This document shows positions 1,218 through 41,508 of a DNA stretch of 41,508 nt, piece after piece. The stretch covers positions 1 to 41,508 of the IMG/VR virus record IMGVR_UViG_3300036886_000032. One strand, written 5' to 3'. Both the position numbers and the translations under genes were made by a program. The notes beneath the pieces are model-generated. The model was given only the letters and a program-made list of their open reading frames with translations, searched no databases and was not told where the DNA came from. Numbering within the stretch: position 1 is the stretch's first letter; the number at the start of each line of letters is the position of its first letter. The DNA comes from a virus.

Positions 1218-1724
1218 ATGCGTATCAACAACACAAACAAACCAACGAGAGAAGAAATTGATAGAGTTATTGATTTTTTAATCAAGTCTGGAGAAGCGGT
1301 TAAAAAACAAAAGCCCGACAACTCTAATATTTTTAATTCGGACGACGAACCAATAATCCCTGAGGGATATAATTGGACTATTAAAAAACATAAAAAGAAC
1401 GGTGAGGTTAATTTGTCTAAAATTGTTCTTTATTTGGATATTGAACAAAAAAACGGTTATGTAAAAGGAAATAAATTAATAATAAAGTTAAAGGGAAAGA
1501 AAGTCCTAAATGCCAATGTTTTGGATTATTTATTGGCTCACCCCGAACTTATTCCGAAGAAATGGAAGGGTAAATACATTTTCTTCTGGGGCACGATTTA
1601 TCGCGGCTCCGGTGACAACCTCTACGTTCGTTGCCTCGGCTGGGATGGTTCCGGGTGGGGCTGGAACGACGGCTGGCTTGGTGGCGATTTCGGTTCCGAT
1701 GGTCCTGCCGCTCTCGCAAGTTGA
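1218..1724 (+). CDS. DGR-type variable protein with C-type-lectin-like C-terminus (168 aa)
   Basis: The N-terminal ~125 residues are AT-rich, Lys/Asn-rich sequence beginning MRINNTNKPTREEIDRVIDF. The C-terminus (from IFFWGTIYR, about residue 120) switches to GC-rich codons and follows the pattern of target proteins of diversity-generating retroelements: LYVR, then alternating W with Gly/Ser/Asp/Asn, ending PAALAS. Nearly all Gly/Ser/Asp/Asn/Cys codons in the tail end in C or T, as expected when AAC or AAT template codons are mutated at their adenines. No reverse transcriptase or template repeat was found in the window, so this would be an orphan target. Such domains display variable ligand-binding surfaces. 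Confidence 0.75.
   Translation: MRINNTNKPTREEIDRVIDFLIKSGEAVKKQKPDNSNIFNSDDEPIIPEGYNWTIKKHKKNGEVNLSKIVLYLDIEQKNGYVKGNKLIIKLKGKKVLNANVLDYLLAHPELIPKKWKGKYIFFWGTIYRGSGDNLYVRCLGWDGSGWGWNDGWLGGDFGSDGPAALAS
1605..1724 (+). other. Putative DGR variable region (VR)
   Basis: The VR spans residue ~130 to the stop. Candidate variable codons include GGC, TCC, GGT, GAC and AAC at 1605-1619 and TGC, GGC, GAT, GGT and TCC further on; fixed codons are Trp, Leu, Phe, Tyr, Pro and the terminal Ala-Ala-Leu-Ala-Ser. One GGG before Trp fits an AGG (Arg) template codon. The 3' end (GCTCTCGCAAGTTGA) is the expected place of an initiation-of-mutagenic-homing sequence. The region is markedly GC-richer than the first 350 nt of its own gene. 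Confidence 0.65.
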
Positions 1725-1794
1725 ACTTTGAATTTAGACCTTTTGTCCTTTGCCCTTAGTCTTTAGTTCTTAGAAACTTTGATAATTATTAACC

Positions 1795-2290: not shown

Positions 2291-2360
2291 TATGCCAAAA
2301 GACACAACAGACCAACAACTAAGCGAGATTATTATTAAGGCTTGTCCTGAAAAGATATGA
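2291..2360 (+). repeat. 70-bp direct repeat, copy 1
   Basis: This copy matches 2941-3010 at 68 of 70 positions (differences at the 14th and 18th bases). Each copy spans a whole 22-codon ORF and ends on the ATGA overlap with the next gene. The two copies bracket the methyltransferase gene. Confidence 0.9.
2292..2360 (+). CDS. 22-aa micro-ORF overlapping the methyltransferase start, copy 1
   Basis: The peptide starts MPKDTTDQQLSE and ends EIIIKACPEKI. Its TGA stop (2358-2360) overlaps the ATG (2357-2359) of the methyltransferase as ATGA. A near-identical second copy lies before the 3007 gene. The arrangement is typical of translational coupling, in which ribosomes terminating here re-initiate on the next gene. 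This would suit a phage whose genes mostly lack Shine-Dalgarno sites. Confidence 0.5.
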   Translation: MPKDTTDQQLSEIIIKACPEKI

Positions 2361-2911
2361 ATAAAAAAATAGCACAACTTTATAAAGGAAAATTTGAAGA
2401 ATTGGATATTATATTCTCAAGGGTTTGGGCAATGCCATCGGCCTGGACATTTACTATTCATCCGATTAAAACTTTATTAGAGAAATATGTTGAAGACGGA
2501 GTTGGCTGGGTTGACCCGTTTGCTGGTGATAACAGCCCAGCGGAGATTACTAACGACCACAATCCAATAAGAAAAGCGAAATCTCATATAGAAGCAATCG
2601 CCTTTTGCCAAGGATTAAACGGCCGTTATAATGGTGTTTTGTTTGACCCTCCTTATTCCTTTACCCAAGTTAAAGAACATTATACTAATTTAGGACAGCC
2701 CGTCACGAAAGAAAATACTTCAATGAAGTTTTATGAAGGAGTGAAAACTGCTATGTGCGAAAAAATAAAGCCAGGTGGATATGCCATTTCTTTCGGTTGG
2801 AATACTAATGGCTTTGGGAAAGAAAGAGGATTTCAAATTGTAGAAATAATGGCCGTAGCTCACGGAGGTTCTAAAAATGATACCTTTGTGACGGTGGAGG
2901 TTAAACTCTAA
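2357..2911 (+). CDS. Small DNA methyltransferase (184 aa), probably adenine-specific
   Basis: A SAM-binding motif I-like segment DPFAGDNSPAEITNDHNP lies near residues 52-70. The catalytic motif IV is FDPPYS near residue 96, of the DPPY type found in N6-adenine (or N4-cytosine) methyltransferases. At 184 aa it is short and lacks an evident target-recognition domain, as is common for solitary phage methylases. It probably modifies phage DNA against restriction or acts in regulation. The start overlaps the upstream micro-ORF by ATGA. Confidence 0.75.
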   Translation: MNKKIAQLYKGKFEELDIIFSRVWAMPSAWTFTIHPIKTLLEKYVEDGVGWVDPFAGDNSPAEITNDHNPIRKAKSHIEAIAFCQGLNGRYNGVLFDPPYSFTQVKEHYTNLGQPVTKENTSMKFYEGVKTAMCEKIKPGGYAISFGWNTNGFGKERGFQIVEIMAVAHGGSKNDTFVTVEVKL

Positions 2912-2940
2912 TCCTCCCAATCCCAAAAAATCTTAAATAA

Positions 2941-3010
2941 TATGCCAAAAGACCCAATAGACCAACAACTAAGCGAGATTATTATTAAGGCTTGTCCTGA
3001 AAAGATATGA
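2941..3010 (+). repeat. 70-bp direct repeat, copy 2
   Basis: Second copy of the 2291-2360 repeat. The 650-bp period means that the unit [micro-ORF + following gene start] has been duplicated, or that a methyltransferase cassette was inserted beside an existing copy. Both substitutions change amino acids (Thr to Pro, Thr to Ile). Confidence 0.9.
2942..3010 (+). CDS. 22-aa micro-ORF overlapping the next gene start, copy 2
   Basis: The peptide starts MPKDPIDQQLSE and ends EIIIKACPEKI. Its TGA at 3008-3010 overlaps the ATG at 3007. The frame and the last 16 residues are kept relative to copy 1, so the peptide, or its role in coupling, seems to be under some constraint. Confidence 0.5.
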   Translation: MPKDPIDQQLSEIIIKACPEKI

Positions 3011-3273
3011 CTGAAATTACAAAAGCAAAAGAATATCTTGGTTCACACAAGGAAAGAGGAACTTGGGTTGCTTGGCAAAGGTTAGATTGGGATTGGTGGG
3101 TTGTAACCAAGAATGGGTTTAACCCTATACCTTTTTTTGAGGAGGGTTGCGGAGTAATAACAAAAAAGTTTTTGAAAACAAAATGGCTGTTAGGAAGAAA
3201 AAAGAAGATACAAGCTTATTCTGATTTTATTGAGTATAGAATTTATCCCAAGAAACAAAGGAGTGGTTATTAA
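3007..3273 (+). CDS. Hypothetical Trp-rich basic protein (88 aa)
   Basis: It starts MTEITKAKEYLGSHKERG and includes WVAWQRLDWDWWVVTKNG, followed by a Lys-rich C-terminal half. No family is recognised. It is the second gene preceded by the duplicated micro-ORF, so its translation is probably coupled in the same manner as that of the methyltransferase. Confidence 0.55.
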   Translation: MTEITKAKEYLGSHKERGTWVAWQRLDWDWWVVTKNGFNPIPFFEEGCGVITKKFLKTKWLLGRKKKIQAYSDFIEYRIYPKKQRSGY

Positions 3274-3288
3274 GTAAATTAAAGTGAT

Positions 3289-3567
3289 ATGAATTTAAAA
3301 CCAATGACTTATAAAAGGGTCTTAATAACTTGGATTGACAGCACAATGAGAAAGACTGTGTGGTGGACATATCAAGCGTTGGAACAAGATATTAACGAAT
3401 CAGAAAAAGGTGAGTATTTCTACTCCGTTGGTTATCTTTTTAAAGAAACTAAGTTAAATTATTATATAGCCAATTCAATTCACTTTGAAGATAAAAAGGC
3501 AGTTTCTTTCGGTTCAATATTCTCAATTCCTAAGGGGTGTGTCTTAAAAATAGAAAACTTAAAATAA
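3289..3567 (+). CDS. Hypothetical small phage protein (92 aa)
   Basis: It starts MNLKPMTYKRVLITWIDS and ends FSIPKGCVLKIENLK. The pattern (strand with W-x-D, 'GYLFKET' in the middle, closing IPKGCVxKIxxL) is that of small beta-rich phage proteins often seen in early clusters, of unknown role. ATATG start context. Confidence 0.55.
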   Translation: MNLKPMTYKRVLITWIDSTMRKTVWWTYQALEQDINESEKGEYFYSVGYLFKETKLNYYIANSIHFEDKKAVSFGSIFSIPKGCVLKIENLK

Positions 3568-3603
3568 CCCCCTCATCTTATTAGGGGATAATATAAAGGG
3601 ATA

Positions 3604-3735
3604 TGTCCAGTTTCGTTCGTCTTATTGGAAAAGGCTTATATTAAGAATGGCACGGGGTCTAATCTTGAACCCTGGATTAAAACCTCATCTATTGATATTG
3701 ACAAGCAATTGAATAACATTGACAAGCGTTTCTAA
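3604..3735 (+). pseudogene. Possible frameshifted small ORF
   Basis: An ATATG start at 3604 opens only 13 codons (MSSFVRLIGKGLY) before a stop. The +1 frame continues with protein-like sequence (EKAYIKNGTGSNLEPW, then KTSSIDIDKQLNNIDKRF) to a TAA at 3733-3735. One base inserted near 3625-3635 would explain this. A decayed gene, a sequencing indel or programmed +1 shifting are all possible; no clear shift site is seen. About 150 nt would otherwise be empty. Confidence 0.3.
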
Positions 3736-3746
3736 AATGATACAAA
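3719..3746 (+). promoter_or_regulatory. Weak sigma70-like promoter candidate
   Basis: TTGACA (3719-3724), a 16-nt spacer, then TACAAA (3741-3746), about 17 nt ahead of the ATG at 3764. The -35 is perfect and the -10 poor. Confidence 0.3.
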
Positions 3747-3763
3747 TAAGTAATAAAAAAGAT

Positions 3764-3997
3764 ATGAAAAAAATCACGCTACAAATTCCCTCGGATTGGC
3801 GTTATGGCCAAACCATCTTTAACTTCTTAGAGTTTATTAGACTTGAAAAGGGAATGGGCGAAGGTGCGGAGGGGCGTATGGCTGACCCATTTCATCTTCA
3901 AGACGATGAGTTTATAGAGTATTGGAATGAGGCCTACGACTTCTTTATGGGGGTAAGAGATAAAAAACGTAAGGCTACACCCTTAAAAAAGAGATAG
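3764..3997 (+). CDS. Hypothetical protein (77 aa)
   Basis: I chose the ATG at 3764 (MKKITLQIPSDWRYGQTIFN), which has the ATATG context; the longer frame from 3719 overlaps the preceding ORF remnant and looks non-coding. An acidic middle (FHLQDDEFIEYWNEAYDFF) precedes a basic tail. It looks like a compact helical protein. Function unknown. Confidence 0.6.
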   Translation: MKKITLQIPSDWRYGQTIFNFLEFIRLEKGMGEGAEGRMADPFHLQDDEFIEYWNEAYDFFMGVRDKKRKATPLKKR

Positions 3998-4017
3998 ATA
4001 ATTAAGGCTATAACCTT

Positions 4018-4506
4018 ATGAAATATTGGTTTATAAGCGACGAACACTACGGTCACGAAAATATTATAAAGTATTGCGACAGACCGTTCAAGGATGTACA
4101 AGAAATGGATAATGAAATTATAAAAAGATGTAATTCATTAGTAAAATCGGGAGATTTTCTTGTTCACGGGGGAGACTTTACTTTAAAGAAAGATGCGGAA
4201 CAATATATCAGGAGATTAAACGGTCAACATATATTCTTGCGTGGTTCCCACGATTATTGGATGGATGGTGCATATGGTGATGATTATTTCGACCAAATAT
4301 GGGAGAAAAAAATAGACAGTATTTACGTGGTGGTCTGCCATTACAATATGCGCACCTGGCCGAGAAGTTTTCACGGTTCAATCCAATTATTCGGACACTC
4401 CCACGGCAAACTCACTCCAAGAGAAAACCAATTTGATATTTCAGTAGAAGCCAATAACTATTATCCGGTTTGTATGGATGATATTAAGAAGAAATTAGAC
4501 TTATAA
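4018..4506 (+). CDS. Calcineurin-like metallophosphoesterase (162 aa), variant GSHD motif
   Basis: The metallophosphoesterase blocks are present in order: SDEHYGHEN (D8, H10), GGDF (51-54), RGSHD (75-79), a His in VVVCHYN, and LFGHSHGK near residue 127. The usual GNH(D/E) box is GSHD here: the Asn that normally coordinates metal and phosphate is Ser, which may alter activity. Single-domain phage members of this type hydrolyse phosphomono- or diesters such as nucleotides. A second, longer paralogue lies at 5926. Confidence 0.8.
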   Translation: MKYWFISDEHYGHENIIKYCDRPFKDVQEMDNEIIKRCNSLVKSGDFLVHGGDFTLKKDAEQYIRRLNGQHIFLRGSHDYWMDGAYGDDYFDQIWEKKIDSIYVVVCHYNMRTWPRSFHGSIQLFGHSHGKLTPRENQFDISVEANNYYPVCMDDIKKKLDL

Positions 4507-7004: not shown

Positions 7005-8753
7005 TTATTTTAATTTCTTTGATGGTTTAAGCGGTGTTTGAACATTATTTTGAAAACCCAAAGCATCAAGGATTAAATAAGGAAGATTTCCGGTTTTAGT
7101 ATCTTGAAAATCTTGGATACCCTGTTGAACGCCCATTGGAGTAATTAATCCAGCTCCAGCATTAAAAGGATTGACGGGTTTATTATTATAATTCTTTCCT
7201 TTCCAAATATCTCTCATTAAACCAGCGAGAGGGGATAGTTTTCCCTCCCAAAAACTTTCAAAAACATCCAAAGCATTTTGAGCTCCATATTTACCATCGG
7301 TTAGGTTTCTGTAAGTCCCGTCGGCTGATTTAGTCCAGAATCCTAATTGACCATTATGTAAAGTAGGAATAAGACGAGATACAACCGTAACAAGGGAAGC
7401 CATCTTACCCGTAACATCCACCGTCTTATTGCCTTGTTTTATTTTACCAAAGTTTGAGGAGCGAGGGTCAGTTTCCGCACTTCCTGGGTTTAGAATGTTA
7501 GCAATAGTCATAATACCAGCCACCCCACCGATAATCTTTAATAGATTTGTAGCCGCCACTTTTTTAACAAAGACCGGAGCCTTAGGGTCAAATAAATGAG
7601 CCGTCAAAGTATCTATATTTGATTTTAAGAAACGACCAGCAAAGAATAATTGATTTATTTCTTTACCAACCATATTAAGACGACCTAAATCTCCACGACC
7701 AGTCATTGAATTAGAAAGAGAACCAAGACCCTCTATGTTTTGTTTATCCTTTAAATCGGTTCCTATACTATCAGCCCATTTATACATTCTATCAAAATAA
7801 TCTGCCCTTAATCTCATTGCCGCTCCATTAAAAGCTGATTCTGCTCCTTTAAATACTCTACCCAACAATGGGATTCTTTCGGGGAGAGAAGACGGAAATT
7901 GCTCTTCTGAATCAATACCAATATCAAGTTTAGCTGTTTTATATGTTCCGTCAATGGCGTGTGGGCGAGAGAAGACATCCGCCTTAATAGGAAGCATAGC
8001 GTCTTGACCTTTTAATTCCTTTCCTATATTACTAAATGATTTTATAAGTTGTTTTCCCCATAGGTCGGGGTTGGTATACATCATTTTAATACCCTGTGTT
8101 CCAAAAAAGCTATCATCCAATGTAGATAGCATTGACTTTGTCGCTCCGCCCAAATTAGCAATTCCCTTCGCCCAATTAGCGGGGTTTAGGTATTCTTTCG
8201 GCTGTATCCGCTTACTATCAGCGATAAGGCCACCAACGAAATCGTTGCGTAAAACATAATTAATGCCATATTGTATTCTTTCCGGACTTCTTAATGGGGA
8301 GTCTGGTTTTATTAATTGTTTAGTTTCGTCTACTTTATTTGATAAATCTATTATTTTTTTGGTTTCTTCAAGACTTATATCAGCCCGATACCTTCTTGAA
8401 TATATATCTCCCGCTAATTCTGTCAATACCTTATCTCCTTCGCCAGGATTCCATAGTCTGGTATTTTTAGCTTCCAGATTTTGTTGAAGTTTTAATGCTC
8501 TATCGGATTTTTCTTTTTCTGATAAGCCGGCCAAGTCTTTAAATAGATTATAAACAGCTCGTTCCTGATTCTTTAGAAGGAGTTTTTTTTCATATAAAAT
8601 ATTAACCTGTTTGGCATTATCCTTGCTAAGTATTGTTTCTAAAAAAGACCTTGTTTCTTCAGAAGACATTTCGCTTAATTTTTCAGGATTAAGACGACCA
8701 TCAACGATGGCTTGTTTAAGTTTTACTACCTCTGATTTTATTAAGCAATACAT
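7005..8753 (-). CDS. Internal virion protein with LPD38-like polyvalent-associated region (582 aa)
   Basis: The N-terminal third is charged and helical. From about residue 185 come NPANWAKGIANLGG, IPLLGRVFKGAESAFNG with RLRADYFDRM, TGRGDLGRLN with INQLFFAGRFLKSNID, a hydrophobic segment (LLKIIGGVAGIMTIANIL), and DPRSSNFGKIKQGNKTVDVT. This order matches a domain often at the C-terminus of large phage polyvalent proteins (as I recall, large polyvalent protein-associated domain 38). Here it is a separate gene directly after the 818-aa ORF, with a start 2 nt beyond that stop in another frame. Likely packaged and injected with the DNA. Confidence 0.6.
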   Translation of the reverse strand: MYCLIKSEVVKLKQAIVDGRLNPEKLSEMSSEETRSFLETILSKDNAKQVNILYEKKLLLKNQERAVYNLFKDLAGLSEKEKSDRALKLQQNLEAKNTRLWNPGEGDKVLTELAGDIYSRRYRADISLEETKKIIDLSNKVDETKQLIKPDSPLRSPERIQYGINYVLRNDFVGGLIADSKRIQPKEYLNPANWAKGIANLGGATKSMLSTLDDSFFGTQGIKMMYTNPDLWGKQLIKSFSNIGKELKGQDAMLPIKADVFSRPHAIDGTYKTAKLDIGIDSEEQFPSSLPERIPLLGRVFKGAESAFNGAAMRLRADYFDRMYKWADSIGTDLKDKQNIEGLGSLSNSMTGRGDLGRLNMVGKEINQLFFAGRFLKSNIDTLTAHLFDPKAPVFVKKVAATNLLKIIGGVAGIMTIANILNPGSAETDPRSSNFGKIKQGNKTVDVTGKMASLVTVVSRLIPTLHNGQLGFWTKSADGTYRNLTDGKYGAQNALDVFESFWEGKLSPLAGLMRDIWKGKNYNNKPVNPFNAGAGLITPMGVQQGIQDFQDTKTGNLPYLILDALGFQNNVQTPLKPSKKLK

Positions 8754-8755
8754 AT

Positions 8756-11212
8756 TTATTTACAAGCTATTTCTTCTATTAGTTTATTCCAATCGTATTT
8801 ATTGGGCTTTTCTTTGGACACCTTTTCTTTGAGTTTATTCTTAATATCGGATTTGGTTTTTGTCGGGTTTTCATCCTTTAGGTTTTTGTCTTTAACTTTT
8901 TGTCTTTCTTTTACTACCTTATTAATCTGGCTAAAAGCATCTTCGGTTTTTTTTTCATCTAACATTTTAATCCTTTGACCAAGTATGGTGCTTTCTTTAG
9001 CGACCCCCCCTTCTTCCGTGGCGAGTCGTCTTAATAATTCAACATTACCATCTTTAAGGGCTTGATTTTTAACGGCTATAAAAACACTTTCCGGCAATGC
9101 TCCGTTTGTGGGAAGTTCTTTGCCAAGGGCTATATTAACTGCTTGGTCTGGATTATTTTCAATGATTTGATTAACCCTTTCTGCCTGGTCTTTAAAGTTT
9201 ACTTTATCGTATTCACTAATACCACTAAAATCGGCTTGTAATCCTTGTGCTAATGTTTCGGTTTTAATCCTTTCTGGGATAGACGCTTTGGCGGTCGTTG
9301 GTTCATAGGTAAGATTTTTAACATCAGCGGTTTCTACGGGTTGCTGTGCCTTATTCCAGATGTCTGTTAGTTGGGATTTGGTTTTAGTAGGACTTAATTT
9401 TATTTTATCATAATTAAAAATAACAGCCTGCTCTCCATCTGGGGAATATGAAGCAGAAGTCCCATCATATCCTTTTGCTTTTAGGTATTCTTGTTCAAGA
9501 CCAGACATTTTATTTCCAGTCATTGGGTCTTTATAGTCCATTAACTTTTCTGCTTTCGGTGTTTCTTGCCAAACTTTCATTGGTTTTCCGTCTTGACCTA
9601 AAACATATTCACCATTAGGCTTTTTAAGAAAATCATTTTTATAATATCCTTCTTTACTACCCCAATCAATTAATTCATTTCTTGTCGGGTAATTATCTGC
9701 TAATTTCAAATTATTTGTATTTACTTCATAAACATAAGGTCTTTTACCTATCTGTCCACCTTGCCATATTTCTGGGTCTTTAGTAACATAAAAACCTTTA
9801 CCAAGTTGACCTTGTTTGGGACTGTAATTTTTATCTATTTTTAAATTAGGATTATTAGAAACGTGGTATAGTTTATTTTCTCCCTGTGCCTTCACAAAAT
9901 CCTCCGCCGTCTTATACTTTTGGGCTTCAAGAGTAAGGGGGTCTGCTTCCTTTTTAACTCCAAAATTATAAACAGGTTCTGAGGGTGTTTCTGCTTTAGG
10001 CATCGCTTCGTCGGGGGTGTTTAGGGCTTTTTTAACGGCTACATCAACAACAGTCTTCGCCCCGTCTTCACCGAATTTAGGGGTGAGTTCCGCCACCTTT
10101 CCTTTTAGAAAATCCTGTCCGCCTTTTACTAATTCTCCGCCTAATAAAATCTGTCCAGCTAAAGAGCCAGCTTCTTTTATAGAGTCATTAAGATTATCTT
10201 TAGCTTCGGGAGAAATCGGAAGAGCATCGGTAATACTCACGGCTATGTTTCCGCCAATATCTCCCGTAACGGCAAAGGGGAGGGAAATAAGGTTGGCGAG
10301 TGTATTTATAATGGGTATATTTTTGGCCATTGCGAACAGACCCGATATAGGAGAAAAGGCGATACCCGCCAATCCAGTTGCTACGCCGATACCCCTAGAT
10401 ATTTCTTGACTTGTGGAAACTGGTTGCTTAGAAGTAAAGGAAGCAAAAGCGTCTTTAATTTTAGCACTTTCCGCCAAGATAGCATTTCTTATTGGAAGAC
10501 CGCCAGATTGTATTAGGGATTGTTTTCCCTGTAAAATATCAGTCGCTGTCTGGTGAGATACGGAGGGCAGGGTGGTAGCGGAAGTTTTTAAATCTTTTAA
10601 CGCCTGTGTGGTTTGGGGCAGGGCTTGCGCTAATTGTCCCTTGTTGGATTGCTGTAAAATAGCGGGCGTAGAGTTGGATGTGATGGAATTTTGAACGGTT
10701 TTAGCGGTAGGAAGAAAAATACTTTTAACCCCCTTTAAGATATTAGTAAGAGAATAAGGATTAGTGCTTACCCCTTGACTTTCGGCGGTCTGTTGCTGTT
10801 TGGCCGTAAGAACTTGTAAACGAGCTTCGGGAAGACTTAATTTTCCCGATTTAAAATCGTTAATAGCTTGTTGTTCCACTTTATCTGCTTGAGTAGCTTG
10901 TTTTAAAGGAGTAAGTTTAATATTTTCCACCTGAGTATTCGCACCCCCCAAGCCGACAGGGACAATATCATCTCTTTGTTTTCCTGCTTGTGTCTGTTCG
11001 CCTCCGTATGTTGAATGGCCAGTATTAACAAGAGTATTTGGTTGCCCGAAAACAGAATTATAAGCACCGCCTCCTAAAAAGTCTGGAAGAGTTTTAATAA
11101 CCGAGGGAGTAGTCGGTATGGTTGGTTGAGAACCCTTAATACCAAAACCATAACCGGTCTGCCCAGTCTGCTTGGGTTGAGTGTTATTTCCTATTCCAAA
11201 TCCGTAAGGCAT
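8756..11212 (-). CDS. Polyvalent internal virion protein: HNH-like segment, membrane region, ADP-ribosyltransferase-like domain (818 aa)
   Basis: The N-terminus has a doubled YGFGI motif. Residues ~65-130 (GHSTYGGEQ, QRDDIVPVGLGGANTQVENI, FKSGKLSLPEARLQVL) resemble an HNH fold, but the usual DH pair reads DD, so nuclease activity is doubtful. About 270-330 is a Gly/Ala/Ile-rich membrane-active stretch. About 445-605 fits the ART H-Y-E scheme: KLYHVSN, GKGFYVTKD, then YLKAKGYDG and GEQAVIFNYDKIKL. The C-terminus is a charged coiled coil. This combination is that of polyvalent proteins injected to modify host targets. It sits between the 514- and 582-aa internal-type proteins. Confidence 0.65.
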   Translation of the reverse strand: MPYGFGIGNNTQPKQTGQTGYGFGIKGSQPTIPTTPSVIKTLPDFLGGGAYNSVFGQPNTLVNTGHSTYGGEQTQAGKQRDDIVPVGLGGANTQVENIKLTPLKQATQADKVEQQAINDFKSGKLSLPEARLQVLTAKQQQTAESQGVSTNPYSLTNILKGVKSIFLPTAKTVQNSITSNSTPAILQQSNKGQLAQALPQTTQALKDLKTSATTLPSVSHQTATDILQGKQSLIQSGGLPIRNAILAESAKIKDAFASFTSKQPVSTSQEISRGIGVATGLAGIAFSPISGLFAMAKNIPIINTLANLISLPFAVTGDIGGNIAVSITDALPISPEAKDNLNDSIKEAGSLAGQILLGGELVKGGQDFLKGKVAELTPKFGEDGAKTVVDVAVKKALNTPDEAMPKAETPSEPVYNFGVKKEADPLTLEAQKYKTAEDFVKAQGENKLYHVSNNPNLKIDKNYSPKQGQLGKGFYVTKDPEIWQGGQIGKRPYVYEVNTNNLKLADNYPTRNELIDWGSKEGYYKNDFLKKPNGEYVLGQDGKPMKVWQETPKAEKLMDYKDPMTGNKMSGLEQEYLKAKGYDGTSASYSPDGEQAVIFNYDKIKLSPTKTKSQLTDIWNKAQQPVETADVKNLTYEPTTAKASIPERIKTETLAQGLQADFSGISEYDKVNFKDQAERVNQIIENNPDQAVNIALGKELPTNGALPESVFIAVKNQALKDGNVELLRRLATEEGGVAKESTILGQRIKMLDEKKTEDAFSQINKVVKERQKVKDKNLKDENPTKTKSDIKNKLKEKVSKEKPNKYDWNKLIEEIACK

Positions 11213-29836: not shown

Positions 29837-30745
29837 TTACGCACTCACACCAGTTCTAATCGCAATTATCCAATTAGCGTTAAGAACTTTCGCCACAAAG
29901 TGGGCTTTCCAACCAATCGTGGAATACATATTCAACGGATTGGAGGTATCACCATCGGTCGGATTCTTCACGTAGATGAATTTATCGGGCTGGGAAGCCA
30001 GATTAATCATACCGTAAGCGTTCTTACCGAAGATATAGGTATCATAAACCTCAACAGTAGAGGTCTGATGAACTTCGTTGTTCGTTTCCACGAAATCAAC
30101 GCCGTGTAAAGCACCAATCTGACCGTTCTTGACCTTACTCGAATCCGTGTAGATTTGAGCAGACAGCCAAGTAGAATCTCCACGTAAATCATAGACAGCG
30201 GAGACCGGGACAATGCCACGGAACATACCGTTCTCAAATGTTTTAGCGAAATTCTTTTTCAGGGTTCTAACCGCTTTCTTAATCTCCGTAGAGTTAAGAG
30301 TAGTGGAAGCGGTTATCGCAGACAGTAAGGCACCACCAACATTTTGGGCAGTCGCACCAGCCGAGAGAGTGGCCGCCAATAGGCAGTCAATCGTGTAGCC
30401 AGCGTTATAACCCAAGACCTCGGTATGTTCTTTCAAATTCTCATCAATAGAGGTAAGAGAGAACAAGGAACCAACAGTCGTGTAGGTGCCGTAATCAGCG
30501 ATAGTCGCAGACACAATCGTAGCAGTCATATCAACCGCAGTCGGATTGGTCGCTTCAGTTAAAGCAGTCGTGGCAGCAGCCAGAGTAGAAAATCTATTGA
30601 AATACACGGTCTTGCCGGAATTCAACGGGATGTTTCTCTTCTGAGCCCCCCAGTCATACTTTAATTCAGCTTCTGCTCTGTCAAGGAAGACCTTGTCATA
30701 GTAGATGCTCATTAGGGTCGTTAGACCCGTAGTAATGGAACTCAT
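29837..30745 (-). CDS. Major capsid protein, N4-gp56 family (302 aa)
   Basis: It has the family's sequence layout: MSIYYDKVFLDRAEAELKYD at the N-terminus, NSGKTVYFNRFSTLAAATTA with LTEATNPTAVDMT, then ATIADYGTYTTVGSLFSLTS, LGYNAGYTIDCLLAATL, a central FENGMFRGIVPVSAVYDLR and a closing YSTIGWKAHFVAKVLN. Length is close to other small HK97-fold capsid proteins of this family. It sits downstream of the scaffold gene. Confidence 0.85.
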   Translation of the reverse strand: MSSITTGLTTLMSIYYDKVFLDRAEAELKYDWGAQKRNIPLNSGKTVYFNRFSTLAAATTALTEATNPTAVDMTATIVSATIADYGTYTTVGSLFSLTSIDENLKEHTEVLGYNAGYTIDCLLAATLSAGATAQNVGGALLSAITASTTLNSTEIKKAVRTLKKNFAKTFENGMFRGIVPVSAVYDLRGDSTWLSAQIYTDSSKVKNGQIGALHGVDFVETNNEVHQTSTVEVYDTYIFGKNAYGMINLASQPDKFIYVKNPTDGDTSNPLNMYSTIGWKAHFVAKVLNANWIIAIRTGVSA

Positions 30746-31845: not shown

Positions 31846-33735
31846 TTATCTTACTGGCATTGCTTGCATTGGTTTAGCCATCGGCTGACCCTGAGCCATA
31901 CCCCCCTGGGGTGTCTGACCTTGCCCCAACATAGGCTGAGTGGCCATATTAGCTTTCTGTGATTGTTCGGCATATTCTATTTCCATAGGATTAATACCCA
32001 TCATGGTGTTTATCTTCATAAAAATGGGTTTGACCATCGGGTTATCAAGTAAGGCGGGGTTCTGAGCGACACTTGATAAGAACTGGAATGACTGTTGCAT
32101 CAAAGCCAAGGTCTTGGTCTGTTCGTCTTTGGTTATGAACTCAAAGTCAAACTCAACATCCTTATACATTTGGTCTTTAATCTCTACCCAGCGTTCTTTA
32201 CCCATTCCTTTAAGTTTGGAAACAATAGTGGAAACCAAGAGCTTGTAATCGTCTTGACCCTCAACTTGAACCTCGCCATTAATAATCTTTTGATTGGCAA
32301 GTATCTTGGCGTATTCGTTATCAAAGTAATTCATATCATCAAGAGAACCGGAGAAGCGAAGCACGTGGGCGACACTTAAATCTTTAATCGCTTCAGGGAG
32401 TATCATATCCTTATAGTATTCTTTTAAAACCAAAAGTAATTCAGCTTTCTTTGACTCAAACTCAGATGAAGAGTTAGAATTCATTATCGCTGAAGTTGTA
32501 GCAGTCATTCTTCCGCCTCCACTCATTCCTTCTCCAAGTAATACTGAGTTAACAAACGACACCTCGGAAGCTAATTGAGAATATCTTGCTTCCTCCTGTT
32601 CAAATGCTCCAATGTTTCTTTCCTCATTAGCCAAAGCGGTAAGACCACCTTGCGCCCCAGAACGGATAACATCGCCACTCTGTAAGTCTGTTAGGATATT
32701 TTGAACGATAGTCGGGTCTTGCGTCTGAAAGATATGTAAAGCGGAAAGAGCCATCGCTATTCTCTTCTGATTAGCCATTTCATTCACTCTCTCTTGAGCC
32801 GGAAACAAATCCTCTATGACACCAACTCCCAATAAACGACCTTCAGTTGAATCATAATTATAGCCTTTAATCGGCCAGTCTTTCTTCCATTCGCTCTTGT
32901 ATAGAATAGTGCCTCCGTCTACATCGTTATTCTCTTGATTCTTGGTAAGGTCAAAAGGGTTGGCAACAATAAAGACAGACCGAACCATCTCATCTTCTTC
33001 ATAACCTCGTGCGTCATTTCCCTTCTCAAGCCAGCCTTTAGGAACTTCACCAAATCTACGCCACACCTCGTGATAGGTTGAGGAACGAATAATGTTAGAT
33101 ACATTCGTTTCTCTCATCGGATAAGACTTGGGAGCTTCTCCGTTCTTGTTTCTATCCTTTCTAATGACTTCTTCAACAGCGTCTTTATCCCAGCCGTTAC
33201 TCTTAGCCATTCGTCTTAACTGTGTATCGGTTAAATAGTATTTATAGGTAACAAAGCGTGATTCCTCTATTGATTCGGCGGTCGAGTCAAAAGCCATTCG
33301 TCTTAAATCTAAAACTCCTTTATCCCATTTCTCTTTCATCTTTTCAATAAAGACTGAACCATAGATAGGAGCCTTGCGGGTAATGGCGTCAAACATCTTC
33401 TGAACATTATGTTCTCTATTCCACTGCTTCAACTCTTCTTGTAATAAAAAAGCGGCCATCACACTATGAGGATTAGTCGCTGTTAAAACAATATCTTTAG
33501 CATCAAACTTAAGGAGCTTAGAAGCAACCTTAGCTCTTAGCTTTGAGATGTTATAAAAGATTTTCTCTAAGCCCGATATTTTCGTCTTATCTTGAAACTG
33601 GGAGTTATAGTAAGAATGACAACGTTTGATTGTCTCGTAAGAATTAAATAGATACCCGTATACTATTTCTATGAAGTTATTGGTATAGTCTTGAACTTCA
33701 TTTCTTATCTGACTATAAATACTTGTGTAGGCCAT
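31846..33735 (-). CDS. Portal protein (629 aa)
   Basis: It starts MAYTSIYSQIRNEVQDYTNN. It has a clip/stem-like organisation: NISKLRAKVASKLLKF, APIYGSVFIEKMKEKW, SRFVTYKYYLTDTQLRRMA, a core GRLLGVGVIEDLFPAQERVN followed by a long helix (NEMANQKRIAMALSALHIF), and a Gln/Met/Pro-rich C-terminal tail (GQGQTPQGGMAQGQPMAK). Gene position directly after the terminase and a size of 629 aa support a podovirus-type portal. Confidence 0.75.
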   Translation of the reverse strand: MAYTSIYSQIRNEVQDYTNNFIEIVYGYLFNSYETIKRCHSYYNSQFQDKTKISGLEKIFYNISKLRAKVASKLLKFDAKDIVLTATNPHSVMAAFLLQEELKQWNREHNVQKMFDAITRKAPIYGSVFIEKMKEKWDKGVLDLRRMAFDSTAESIEESRFVTYKYYLTDTQLRRMAKSNGWDKDAVEEVIRKDRNKNGEAPKSYPMRETNVSNIIRSSTYHEVWRRFGEVPKGWLEKGNDARGYEEDEMVRSVFIVANPFDLTKNQENNDVDGGTILYKSEWKKDWPIKGYNYDSTEGRLLGVGVIEDLFPAQERVNEMANQKRIAMALSALHIFQTQDPTIVQNILTDLQSGDVIRSGAQGGLTALANEERNIGAFEQEEARYSQLASEVSFVNSVLLGEGMSGGGRMTATTSAIMNSNSSSEFESKKAELLLVLKEYYKDMILPEAIKDLSVAHVLRFSGSLDDMNYFDNEYAKILANQKIINGEVQVEGQDDYKLLVSTIVSKLKGMGKERWVEIKDQMYKDVEFDFEFITKDEQTKTLALMQQSFQFLSSVAQNPALLDNPMVKPIFMKINTMMGINPMEIEYAEQSQKANMATQPMLGQGQTPQGGMAQGQPMAKPMQAMPVR

Positions 33736-33736
33736 A

Positions 33737-34954
33737 TTATCTAAAATTATTCTGCGTTTCTCTATTACGCTCTATTCTATTTTGTAAATTAAAGTCTTGA
33801 ATAACAGGCTGATTGTTCATCATCAGAACATAACGCAAAGCATCCATAGCATCATCATTCTCCTTTAGCGGAACTTCCTTTAATGGGTCATCGGGGTCAT
33901 AGCAGTAGCTTTCCAACTCAGCGATTGTGTTAATACAAGAGTTATGGATAAATAAGCGGTTCTGCTTAAACATCTCTCTTACAATGTTAATTCCGTTAAT
34001 GATTGAGTCCTTGCCTTTATTAACCTCTAAGCAGTTTATTCCGTGTTGCTGTAAGACAGCAATTCTATCAGGAGAAGCAGGGTCGGGATAAAGTTTAGCC
34101 AGTTTAAGGCTCTGTATCTTCTCAATCAGCTGGTCATTTGTCTGAGATGATTTATACCATTCATTCGTCACCCAATATCTGTTAGCGTAATCAACCTTTA
34201 TAGTAAGAAGTGCCATTGGATGATTAAAGCCAAAGTCCAAGCCACCCATCGTTTCAATGATTCCTTCCGGTGCTTTATCAAACAGATGTAGATTACGTTT
34301 AAACTCTTGATAAACAAGCCCTTCGCTCTTCTTAAAGTCAGCCAGATACTCCTGAGCAAAACGAGTATCAGTCATCTGAGCCTTCAAGCTGTCTATTTCT
34401 TCTTTTGAAATGTGAGGATTATCGTAGGTTGTAAAGTGAAATGCTCCCCAATTCTCATCTGTTAAATGCTTATTGTAAAGGTCGTAGAAATGATTAAACC
34501 CTCTGGGGGTTGAGATGAAATCAGCTCCGCCCCTTCTGTCCGTCAAGGTCGGAATCAGAACCTCCTGCCATAAAGCCCAAAAGTTTTTATATTTAGCGAC
34601 TTCGTCAAGAATAATCTTATCAAAGTATTGTCCTCTAAGATTCTCAACGCTCTCCCAACCTTTTAAAATGATAAATGATTCTGTTCCCTGTAAATTGCGA
34701 ACAGTAATCTCTAATCTGGTTTCGTTTATGTTTGTAGCGATTCCGACTAATTCCTTTTTTAAAATATTCCAAGCAATTTCCCTCGCTTCGCCTAATGTGG
34801 GAGCAAGATAACATTGTCTTGATTCTCTTGCGATTGCCAAACCCTTTATAGATTCTGTTTCAAATACGGTCTTGCCAAAACGCCGACCACAGTTAATTAC
34901 TTTGAATCGGTGTCTGTCCCTCGCTATTATCTTTTGGCTCGGTGTCAATAACAC
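33737..34954 (-). CDS. terL: Terminase large subunit (405 aa), GTG start
   Basis: Walker A CGRRFGKT (22-29), Walker B FDKIILDEVAKY (about 111-122) and coupling motif FISTPRGFNHF form the ATPase. MGGLDFGFNHP, a mid-domain YPDPASPDRI and a closing NDDAMDALRY form the RNase H-like nuclease. The frame has no upstream ATG, only a GTG at 34954 preceded closely by a stop, so GTG initiation is proposed. It overlaps the upstream gene by 62 nt, so translation is probably coupled. Confidence 0.92.
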   Translation of the reverse strand: MLLTPSQKIIARDRHRFKVINCGRRFGKTVFETESIKGLAIARESRQCYLAPTLGEAREIAWNILKKELVGIATNINETRLEITVRNLQGTESFIILKGWESVENLRGQYFDKIILDEVAKYKNFWALWQEVLIPTLTDRRGGADFISTPRGFNHFYDLYNKHLTDENWGAFHFTTYDNPHISKEEIDSLKAQMTDTRFAQEYLADFKKSEGLVYQEFKRNLHLFDKAPEGIIETMGGLDFGFNHPMALLTIKVDYANRYWVTNEWYKSSQTNDQLIEKIQSLKLAKLYPDPASPDRIAVLQQHGINCLEVNKGKDSIINGINIVREMFKQNRLFIHNSCINTIAELESYCYDPDDPLKEVPLKENDDAMDALRYVLMMNNQPVIQDFNLQNRIERNRETQNNFR

Positions 34955-40820: not shown

Positions 40821-41141
40821 ATGTTAGTATGCTCATTCTTAATGGCCGCCTGGATATGTGCCGTTCCTATACCTGTCTGCCCCACTATCACTGAAACGAT
40901 AACCAGAATAGCCATAGAAGAAAACTTTGACCCGATAGTGGCGATAAGGATAGCGAAGTGCGAGTCACAATTAGGAAAATATCGCAAGAACTTTGAAGGA
41001 AGTAGTGCCACCGGACTTTATATGTTTATGCCTCTGACTTTTTCTCATTACTGCGAGGGGAATATAGAAAGCGACATTGACCAAATTAAGTGCTTTATGC
41101 GACAATACAAGAAACACCCCGGCTGGTGGGAATGTGCCTAA
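40821..41141 (+). CDS. Secreted lytic transglycosylase-like protein (106 aa)
   Basis: I chose the ATG at 40821 (TGATATG context) over 40809. A signal-like N-terminus (MLVCSFLMAAWICAVPIPVC) is followed by an SLT-type core: IAIEENFDPIVAIRIAKCES with the probable catalytic Glu48, SSATGLYMFMPLTFSHYC, and ECA at the stop. Being in the early arm, it may be an exported or SAR-type endolysin, or modify the wall early. An in-frame 15-codon continuation follows the TAA. Confidence 0.65.
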   Translation: MLVCSFLMAAWICAVPIPVCPTITETITRIAIEENFDPIVAIRIAKCESQLGKYRKNFEGSSATGLYMFMPLTFSHYCEGNIESDIDQIKCFMRQYKKHPGWWECA

Positions 41142-41189
41142 TGGGTCTCCGAAGAAAAGAAAGAGAATTTTTATAAGAAATTAAAATAA
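41142..41189 (+). other. In-frame continuation after the lytic transglycosylase stop
   Basis: After TAA (41139-41141) the same frame reads WVSEEKKENFYKKLK to another TAA (41187-41189), 5 nt before the next ATG. Most neighbouring genes are spaced 1-5 nt apart, so the 53-nt gap left by the first stop is atypical. The stop may be a recent nonsense change, a sequence error, or read through. Confidence 0.4.
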
Positions 41190-41194
41190 ACAAT

Positions 41195-41508
41195 ATGAAA
41201 TTTAGTCTAACAAAAAACACAAAGATTTGGTGCGGAATTACCCTGTTCCAAATCAAAGCAGAAATGAGTTTCGGGGGTGTGGTTAAAGGAGAATTAGGCG
41301 GTTGGATTGAAAAGAAAGAAAACCTTAGCGACGGGGACAACGCTTGGGTTTCTGGCAACGCTCTGGTTTCTGGCAACGCTCGGGTTTCTGGCGACGCTCT
41401 GGTTTCTGGCAACGCTCTGGTTTCTGGCAACGCTCTGGTTTCTGGCAACGCTCGGGTTTCTGGCGACGCTCTGGTTTCTGGCAACGCTCTGGTTTCTGGC
41501 AACGCTTG
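41195..41508 (+). CDS. Hexapeptide-repeat phage protein, 5' part
   Basis: It starts MKFSLTKNTKIWCGITLFQI, then MSFGGVVKGELGGWIEKKEN and LSDGDNAWVSG, and enters the hexapeptide array at 41339. The frame continues through the contig join to the stop at 483 when the 98-base overlap is removed. The head matches the common phage module in which an LGGWIEK(E/K)ENL element caps a run of six-residue repeats. ATATG start. Function unknown; the fold suggests a rigid beta-helical rod. Confidence 0.8.
   Translation, partial: MKFSLTKNTKIWCGITLFQIKAEMSFGGVVKGELGGWIEKKENLSDGDNAWVSGNALVSGNARVSGDALVSGNALVSGNALVSGNARVSGDALVSGNALVSGNA
41339..41508 (+). repeat. Tandem 18-bp repeat array, start of array
   Basis: Nine full units (41339-41500) plus eight bases, with the same consensus as 1-252. 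Collapsing the overlap gives 18 full units in the joined gene. Confidence 0.95.
41411..41508. repeat. Terminal overlap, right copy
   Basis: Identical to bases 1-98; see the left copy. Its length is compatible with an assembler k-mer overlap rather than a biological terminal repeat. Confidence 0.85.

Follow-up and report, generated by a model that had tools for sequence, protein, structure and literature searches.

A phage gene of a Patescibacteria retroelement target family that may be rewritten in trans by the host

Introduction

To our knowledge, the known phage targets of diversity-generating retroelements (DGRs) are accompanied by a reverse transcriptase (RT) of their own and are mostly tail proteins; a literature search returned no paper on phage-borne orphan variable repeats (VRs). 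The Patescibacteria, which enter the comparison below, are tiny parasitic bacteria. Two described systems lie closest to the locus presented here. The DGR of Bordetella phage BPP-1 requires a hairpin/cruciform just 3' of its VR (PMC3240598), and the members of DGR clade 2 are nearly all cellular, with a distribution confined to Patescibacteria (Roux et al, 2021, PMC8144416). We describe a VR gene on a tailed phage that carries neither an RT nor a template repeat (TR), and weigh the ways by which its VR could have been written.

Results

The stretch of DNA analysed in full, hereafter the window, is an IMG/VR virus record of 41,508 bp that represents a tailed-phage genome, with terminase, head and adaptor genes present:

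33737-34954, minus strand: terminase large subunit, marking the record as a tailed phage.
29837-30745, minus strand: major head protein.
31846-33735, minus strand: head-tail adaptor or portal-like protein.
1-98, with the other copy at 41411-41508, no strand: exact 98-bp terminal repeat, as in a closed or terminally redundant genome.
2357-2911, plus strand: DPPY methylase-like gene; phage contig L025 has a homologue (49% identity) downstream of its own VR genes.

One repeat-protein ORF runs continuously across the record ends when these are joined by the 98-bp repeat; its protein (41138-41508 plus 1-483) consists of repeated 6-aa units (GNALVS-like, 18 nt each). A gap of ~400 nt at 694-1107 has a higher GC content, lacks an ORF of 80 aa and any Rfam match, and may be a structured RNA, while an 83-nt direct repeat (2284-2366 vs 2934-3016, 94%) places the same short leader ahead of two genes. 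The Rfam search gave no match, and no tRNA was found.

The gene of interest was singled out by a sequence-only reading as an orphan DGR target on a phage devoid of both RT and TR, and that claim held. Its components are as follows:

1218-1724, plus strand: gene for a variable protein of 168 aa, a homologue of Patescibacteria DGR targets of the clade 2 type (36-56% identity to 63 relatives).
1218-1349, plus strand: N-terminal 44 residues, comprising a single helix predicted at residues 11-23, plus a linker, in place of the cellular three-helix module.
1350-1601, plus strand: conserved constant domain (..VLNANVLDYLLAHPELIP..WKGK..FFWGTIY), with an AlphaFold pLDDT of about 95-98.
1602-1719, plus strand: VR, 118 nt, with 21 changes at adenines of the closest TR, all A>G.
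1713-1721, plus strand: CTCGCAAGT, at which TR/VR homology stops, the presumed IMH core.

The 168-aa ORF ends in PAALAS, as had been read, and the GC-rich tail reported within an AT-rich gene is evident (0.64 at 1602-1724 vs 0.32 at 1218-1601, and 0.40 overall). The VR placed by that reading at 1605-1724 is real; its limits are better set at 1602-1719, starting with the Arg codon CGC and closing with CTCGCAA, since this is the stretch in common with real TRs, most of which have CGCAACT at the position of the CGCAAGT end of the phage VR. Searches of the window for the missing machinery all came back empty: RVT_1 gave no match, no RT-type YxDD motif occurs in open frames of 60 aa or more, and scanning with the VR for a TR found as its best non-self site an A-rich chance site with 29 non-adenine mismatches.

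Sequence searches of Pfam, NCBIfam, PHROGs and PDB retrieved no relative, and exact VR DNA patterns in IMG/VR gave either no match or chance matches. A search anchored on the VR first yielded relatives in three viral contigs, the alignment of which was then used against bacterial genomes (one early alignment, steering a single search, had made-up rows; the conclusions use real sequences, A2-A4). This recovered 133 family loci in bacterial genomes, nearly all from Patescibacteria; two of the 80 listed matches, L056 and L079, belong to MAGs that carry the labels Micavibrio and Methylocapsa, by transfer or mis-binning. The family conserves a constant part (VLNANVLDYLLAHPELIP..WKGK..FFWGTIYR) and VR anchors (LYVRxLxW..W.W...WL...PAA), and the homology of the window protein to it covers both constant domain and VR. 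RVT_1 was found in 23 of 28 family-bearing genomes. A scan for sites whose differences from a VR are concentrated where the site has A located TRs a few hundred bases downstream of many cellular VR genes, and in 13 of 22 cellular TR/VR pairs every mismatch falls on a TR adenine. By sequence, these cellular relatives fit the Patescibacteria-restricted DGR clade 2 (PMC8144416), and the phage gene almost certainly belongs to the same target family. A low-complexity Gly/Trp-rich tail bearing no relation to DGRs would share the Gly-rich composition; homology to TR/VR cassettes rules this out, and we assign it a negligible probability.

The AlphaFold model of the window protein has a pLDDT of 90. 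The sequence-only reading presupposed a C-type-lectin-like fold, and C-type lectins do top the Foldseek PDB list for the phage protein, but not significantly (best E 0.5, TM 0.36-0.46); they are likewise prominent, below significance, among PDB matches of the cellular protein. On these models a C-type-lectin fold around the VR is favoured, though short of a significant E-value. A fold search of BFVD returned no relative. In most cellular proteins the N-terminus bears a module that is predicted to form three helices, some cellular members being short too; this module is absent from all phage copies, that of the window retaining one helix and the others starting shorter.

Our search for the TR expected from the window VR covered 111 Falkowbacteria-order genomes and 381 from the class that includes this order. 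The best TR, L140, shares 88 of 118 bases with the window VR; 21 of the 30 mismatches sit on TR adenines, and seven of the nine elsewhere are at third codon positions. Mismatches to L141 and L142 fall on template A in 20 of 34 and 18 of 33 cases, with 10 and 9 of the remainder, respectively, at third codon positions. This adenine-centred pattern argues that the window VR was written by a DGR—a conclusion we regard as very probable—from a TR related but not identical to L140-L142. The sequence-only reading had named a host-encoded or co-infecting DGR among its options, recognisable by a TR that differs from the VR solely at adenines and lies beside an RT. Patescibacteria do hold related TRs next to RTs, whereas the cognate TR was not found in the 111 order and 381 class genomes, the closest still having nine non-adenine mismatches. 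The host is probably Falkowbacteria-like, to judge from these repeats. The RTs beside TRs L140 and L142 look decayed, truncated or frameshifted (L165, about 2400-4400; L167, about 8400-9700), and the TRs persist; L165 and L169, both of the Falkowbacteria order, each have an Avd-like ORF situated between the TR and the RT and encoded on the other strand from the RT.

With L140 as a proxy TR, all 21 departures of the window VR from TR adenines are to G, vs 201 G, 102 T and 51 C at TR adenines of cellular TR/VR pairs (mean 57% G), a difference with a beta-binomial P of about 4e-4 in what is a post hoc test on a proxy TR. We count this uniform A>G spectrum, and the decayed-looking RTs beside L140 and L142, against rewriting of the phage VR in trans, together with the lack of any match in a TerL search over the 381 genomes of the Falkowbacteria class. 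Relatives of the terminase (L174-L184) carry neither the variable-protein family nor RVT_1. An ancestor of the phage might instead have captured a patescibacterial VR gene already diversified, such that the VR was written long ago in a cell and rewriting has since ceased. A cognate TR absent from the genomes searched and a spectrum odd for a random DGR both suit this account, which we nonetheless consider fairly unlikely given what related phages display.

Two such relatives, L026 (in a 40,263-bp record) and L027, come from different IMG samples and share 11,738 bp that are identical save for 11 bases. All 11 differences lie inside the VR, in a 59-bp part of it, altering eight codons, and 10 of them are opposite an A in the nearest cellular TRs (binomial P about 3e-6). 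RVT_1 searches gave no match in L025, L026 or L027, which besides the window are all the viral records found to carry the family, nor was a TR found in the 40.3-kb L026 record; having no terminal repeat, this record may lack part of the genome, and an RT could sit on the missing piece. Read from the sequences, the VR-only differences between L026 and L027 would represent recent DGR-type rewriting, with no phage RT detected. The 5-kb viral contig L025 bears three tandem VR genes that differ mostly at A-type codon positions. A VR that ceased to change after capture fits poorly with a phage (L026/L027) that varies in the VR only, or with three diverged L025 VRs varying mostly at A-type codon positions. 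By eye, the phage with this second orphan VR also has a GroEL-like chaperonin gene (L026 10950-12515, 521 aa).

The same relatives bear on two further sources of VR change. VR changes might reach the phage through homologous recombination with VR genes of the host and not through retrohoming, given the homology between phage and host VRs; we judge this very improbable, because L026 and L027 change almost exclusively at A-type positions with their synonymous skeleton and flanks identical, and because cellular VRs and TRs depart from the phage VR at many positions besides these. Supply of RT and TR in trans by another phage or a plasmid, co-infecting or resident, in place of the host chromosome, would accord with the spread of DGRs on mobile elements discussed in PMC8144416. 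It is improbable, if slightly less so than recombination, in view of the cellular, Patescibacteria-restricted nature of clade 2 (PMC8144416) and the lack of RVT_1 in L025-L027.

The VR gene is followed by a further feature:

1726-1781, plus strand: eight [CT]TT[AGT]G units at a spacing of 7-8 nt, a 3' flank tract common to cellular DGR targets and a presumed cis element.

Cellular VR 3' flanks contain a mean of 3.3 CTT[AGT]G units per 110 nt, vs 0.5 when shuffled, with unit-pair spacings peaking at 7-8, 14-15 and 21-23 nt. Among 634,679 110-nt window starts, 1,198 contain five or more units; 1,153 of these are next to a VR, and the opposite strand contributes none. The eight-unit chain at 1726-1781 is the sole such chain on either strand of the phage window, and in 60 Markov shuffles no chain exceeded four units; cellular tracts are less regular, four units being reached under the strict chain test in 9 of 52 flanks. 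A CTTNG tract of 7-8-nt periodicity is near-exclusive to the 3' flanks of Patescibacteria DGR targets (L028-L107; window 1726-1781), and is possibly a retrohoming element undescribed so far. No regular CTTNG chain is present in L025, L026 or L027, a sign that the tract may be dispensable. The tract and the CGCAAGT end of the window VR are both intact, whereas in a dead target, its VR long since frozen, both would be expected to decay. No hairpin with a stem of 6 bp or more follows the window VR within 75 nt, and hairpins at this position are rare in the family (11/58).

In a tree of the constant part, which has few columns, the window copy falls into a single clade with the three L025 copies (98/96), separate from every cellular row, and L026/L027 group with Paceibacterota/Vogelbacteria sequences (99/83). 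This separate branching suggests at least two transfers into phages. The sequence-only reading had offered recent acquisition of the gene as an option; the joint window/L025 clade and the homologous methylase-like gene nearby in both make this unlikely, a point in favour of the early-capture account set out above.

Discussion

We consider it reasonably probable that the DGR target borne by the window phage is rewritten in trans, the agent being a DGR of the patescibacterial host. The gene would be a copy from the Patescibacteria target family, its 118-nt VR having been made by mutagenic retrohoming (adenine-specific reverse transcription of TR RNA). During infection the host DGR would transcribe the TR, host RT would copy the transcript, introducing errors at adenines, and the resulting cDNA would replace the phage VR, steered by the CGCAAGT end and perhaps also by the CTTNG tract; the VR would thus retain the signals needed by the host DGR, namely a TR-like skeleton, the CGCAAGT end and the 3' tract. 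Rewriting is placed in trans since the phage has neither RT nor TR, and we infer that the host DGR is the agent and that its activity on the window phage continues. Judged on sequence, the balance tips modestly towards the window VR being still rewritable in trans on its phage.

The gene sits in a plus-strand accessory block, outside the minus-strand virion block, which argues against a tail fibre, and the product would be a small soluble variable binder. More tentatively, and rather doubtfully as a general scheme, phages may have repeatedly taken the host target gene, cut its N-terminal module and used the host retroelement to diversify it. The missing module suggests, as a guess, that the phage protein could serve as a variable decoy, or as a blocker, against whatever the cellular proteins recognise.

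An RT-less target outside the virion genes, with VR-only variation in a relative, would mean that DGR machinery is shareable between cell and virus—a phage borrowing its host's hypermutation machine, if true. The phage gene also offers a handle on the role of the abundant, function-unknown Patescibacteria DGR proteins, and the periodic CTTNG tract is a testable candidate cis element.

Relative to described systems, the window gene has in common with BPP-1 (mtd/brt/avd) its phage location, C-terminal VR, adenine-directed diversification and IMH-like end. BPP-1 has its own RT, TR and Avd and targets the tail-fibre tip, whereas the window phage lacks RT and TR and its gene lies outside the virion gene block with no hairpin after the VR. 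The cassettes of the Falkowbacteria order (L030, L141, L142, L140) have TRs that equal the window VR save at adenines and a few mostly synonymous sites; with nine or more non-adenine mismatches, they are relatives of the donor and not the donor itself. With DGR clade 2 targets (PMC8144416) the phage gene shares protein family, C-terminal VR, TR skeleton and 3' flank tract, and neither has a recognisable transmembrane or known domain; it differs from them in lacking RT, TR and the N-terminal three-helix module, and in VR substitutions that are all A>G.
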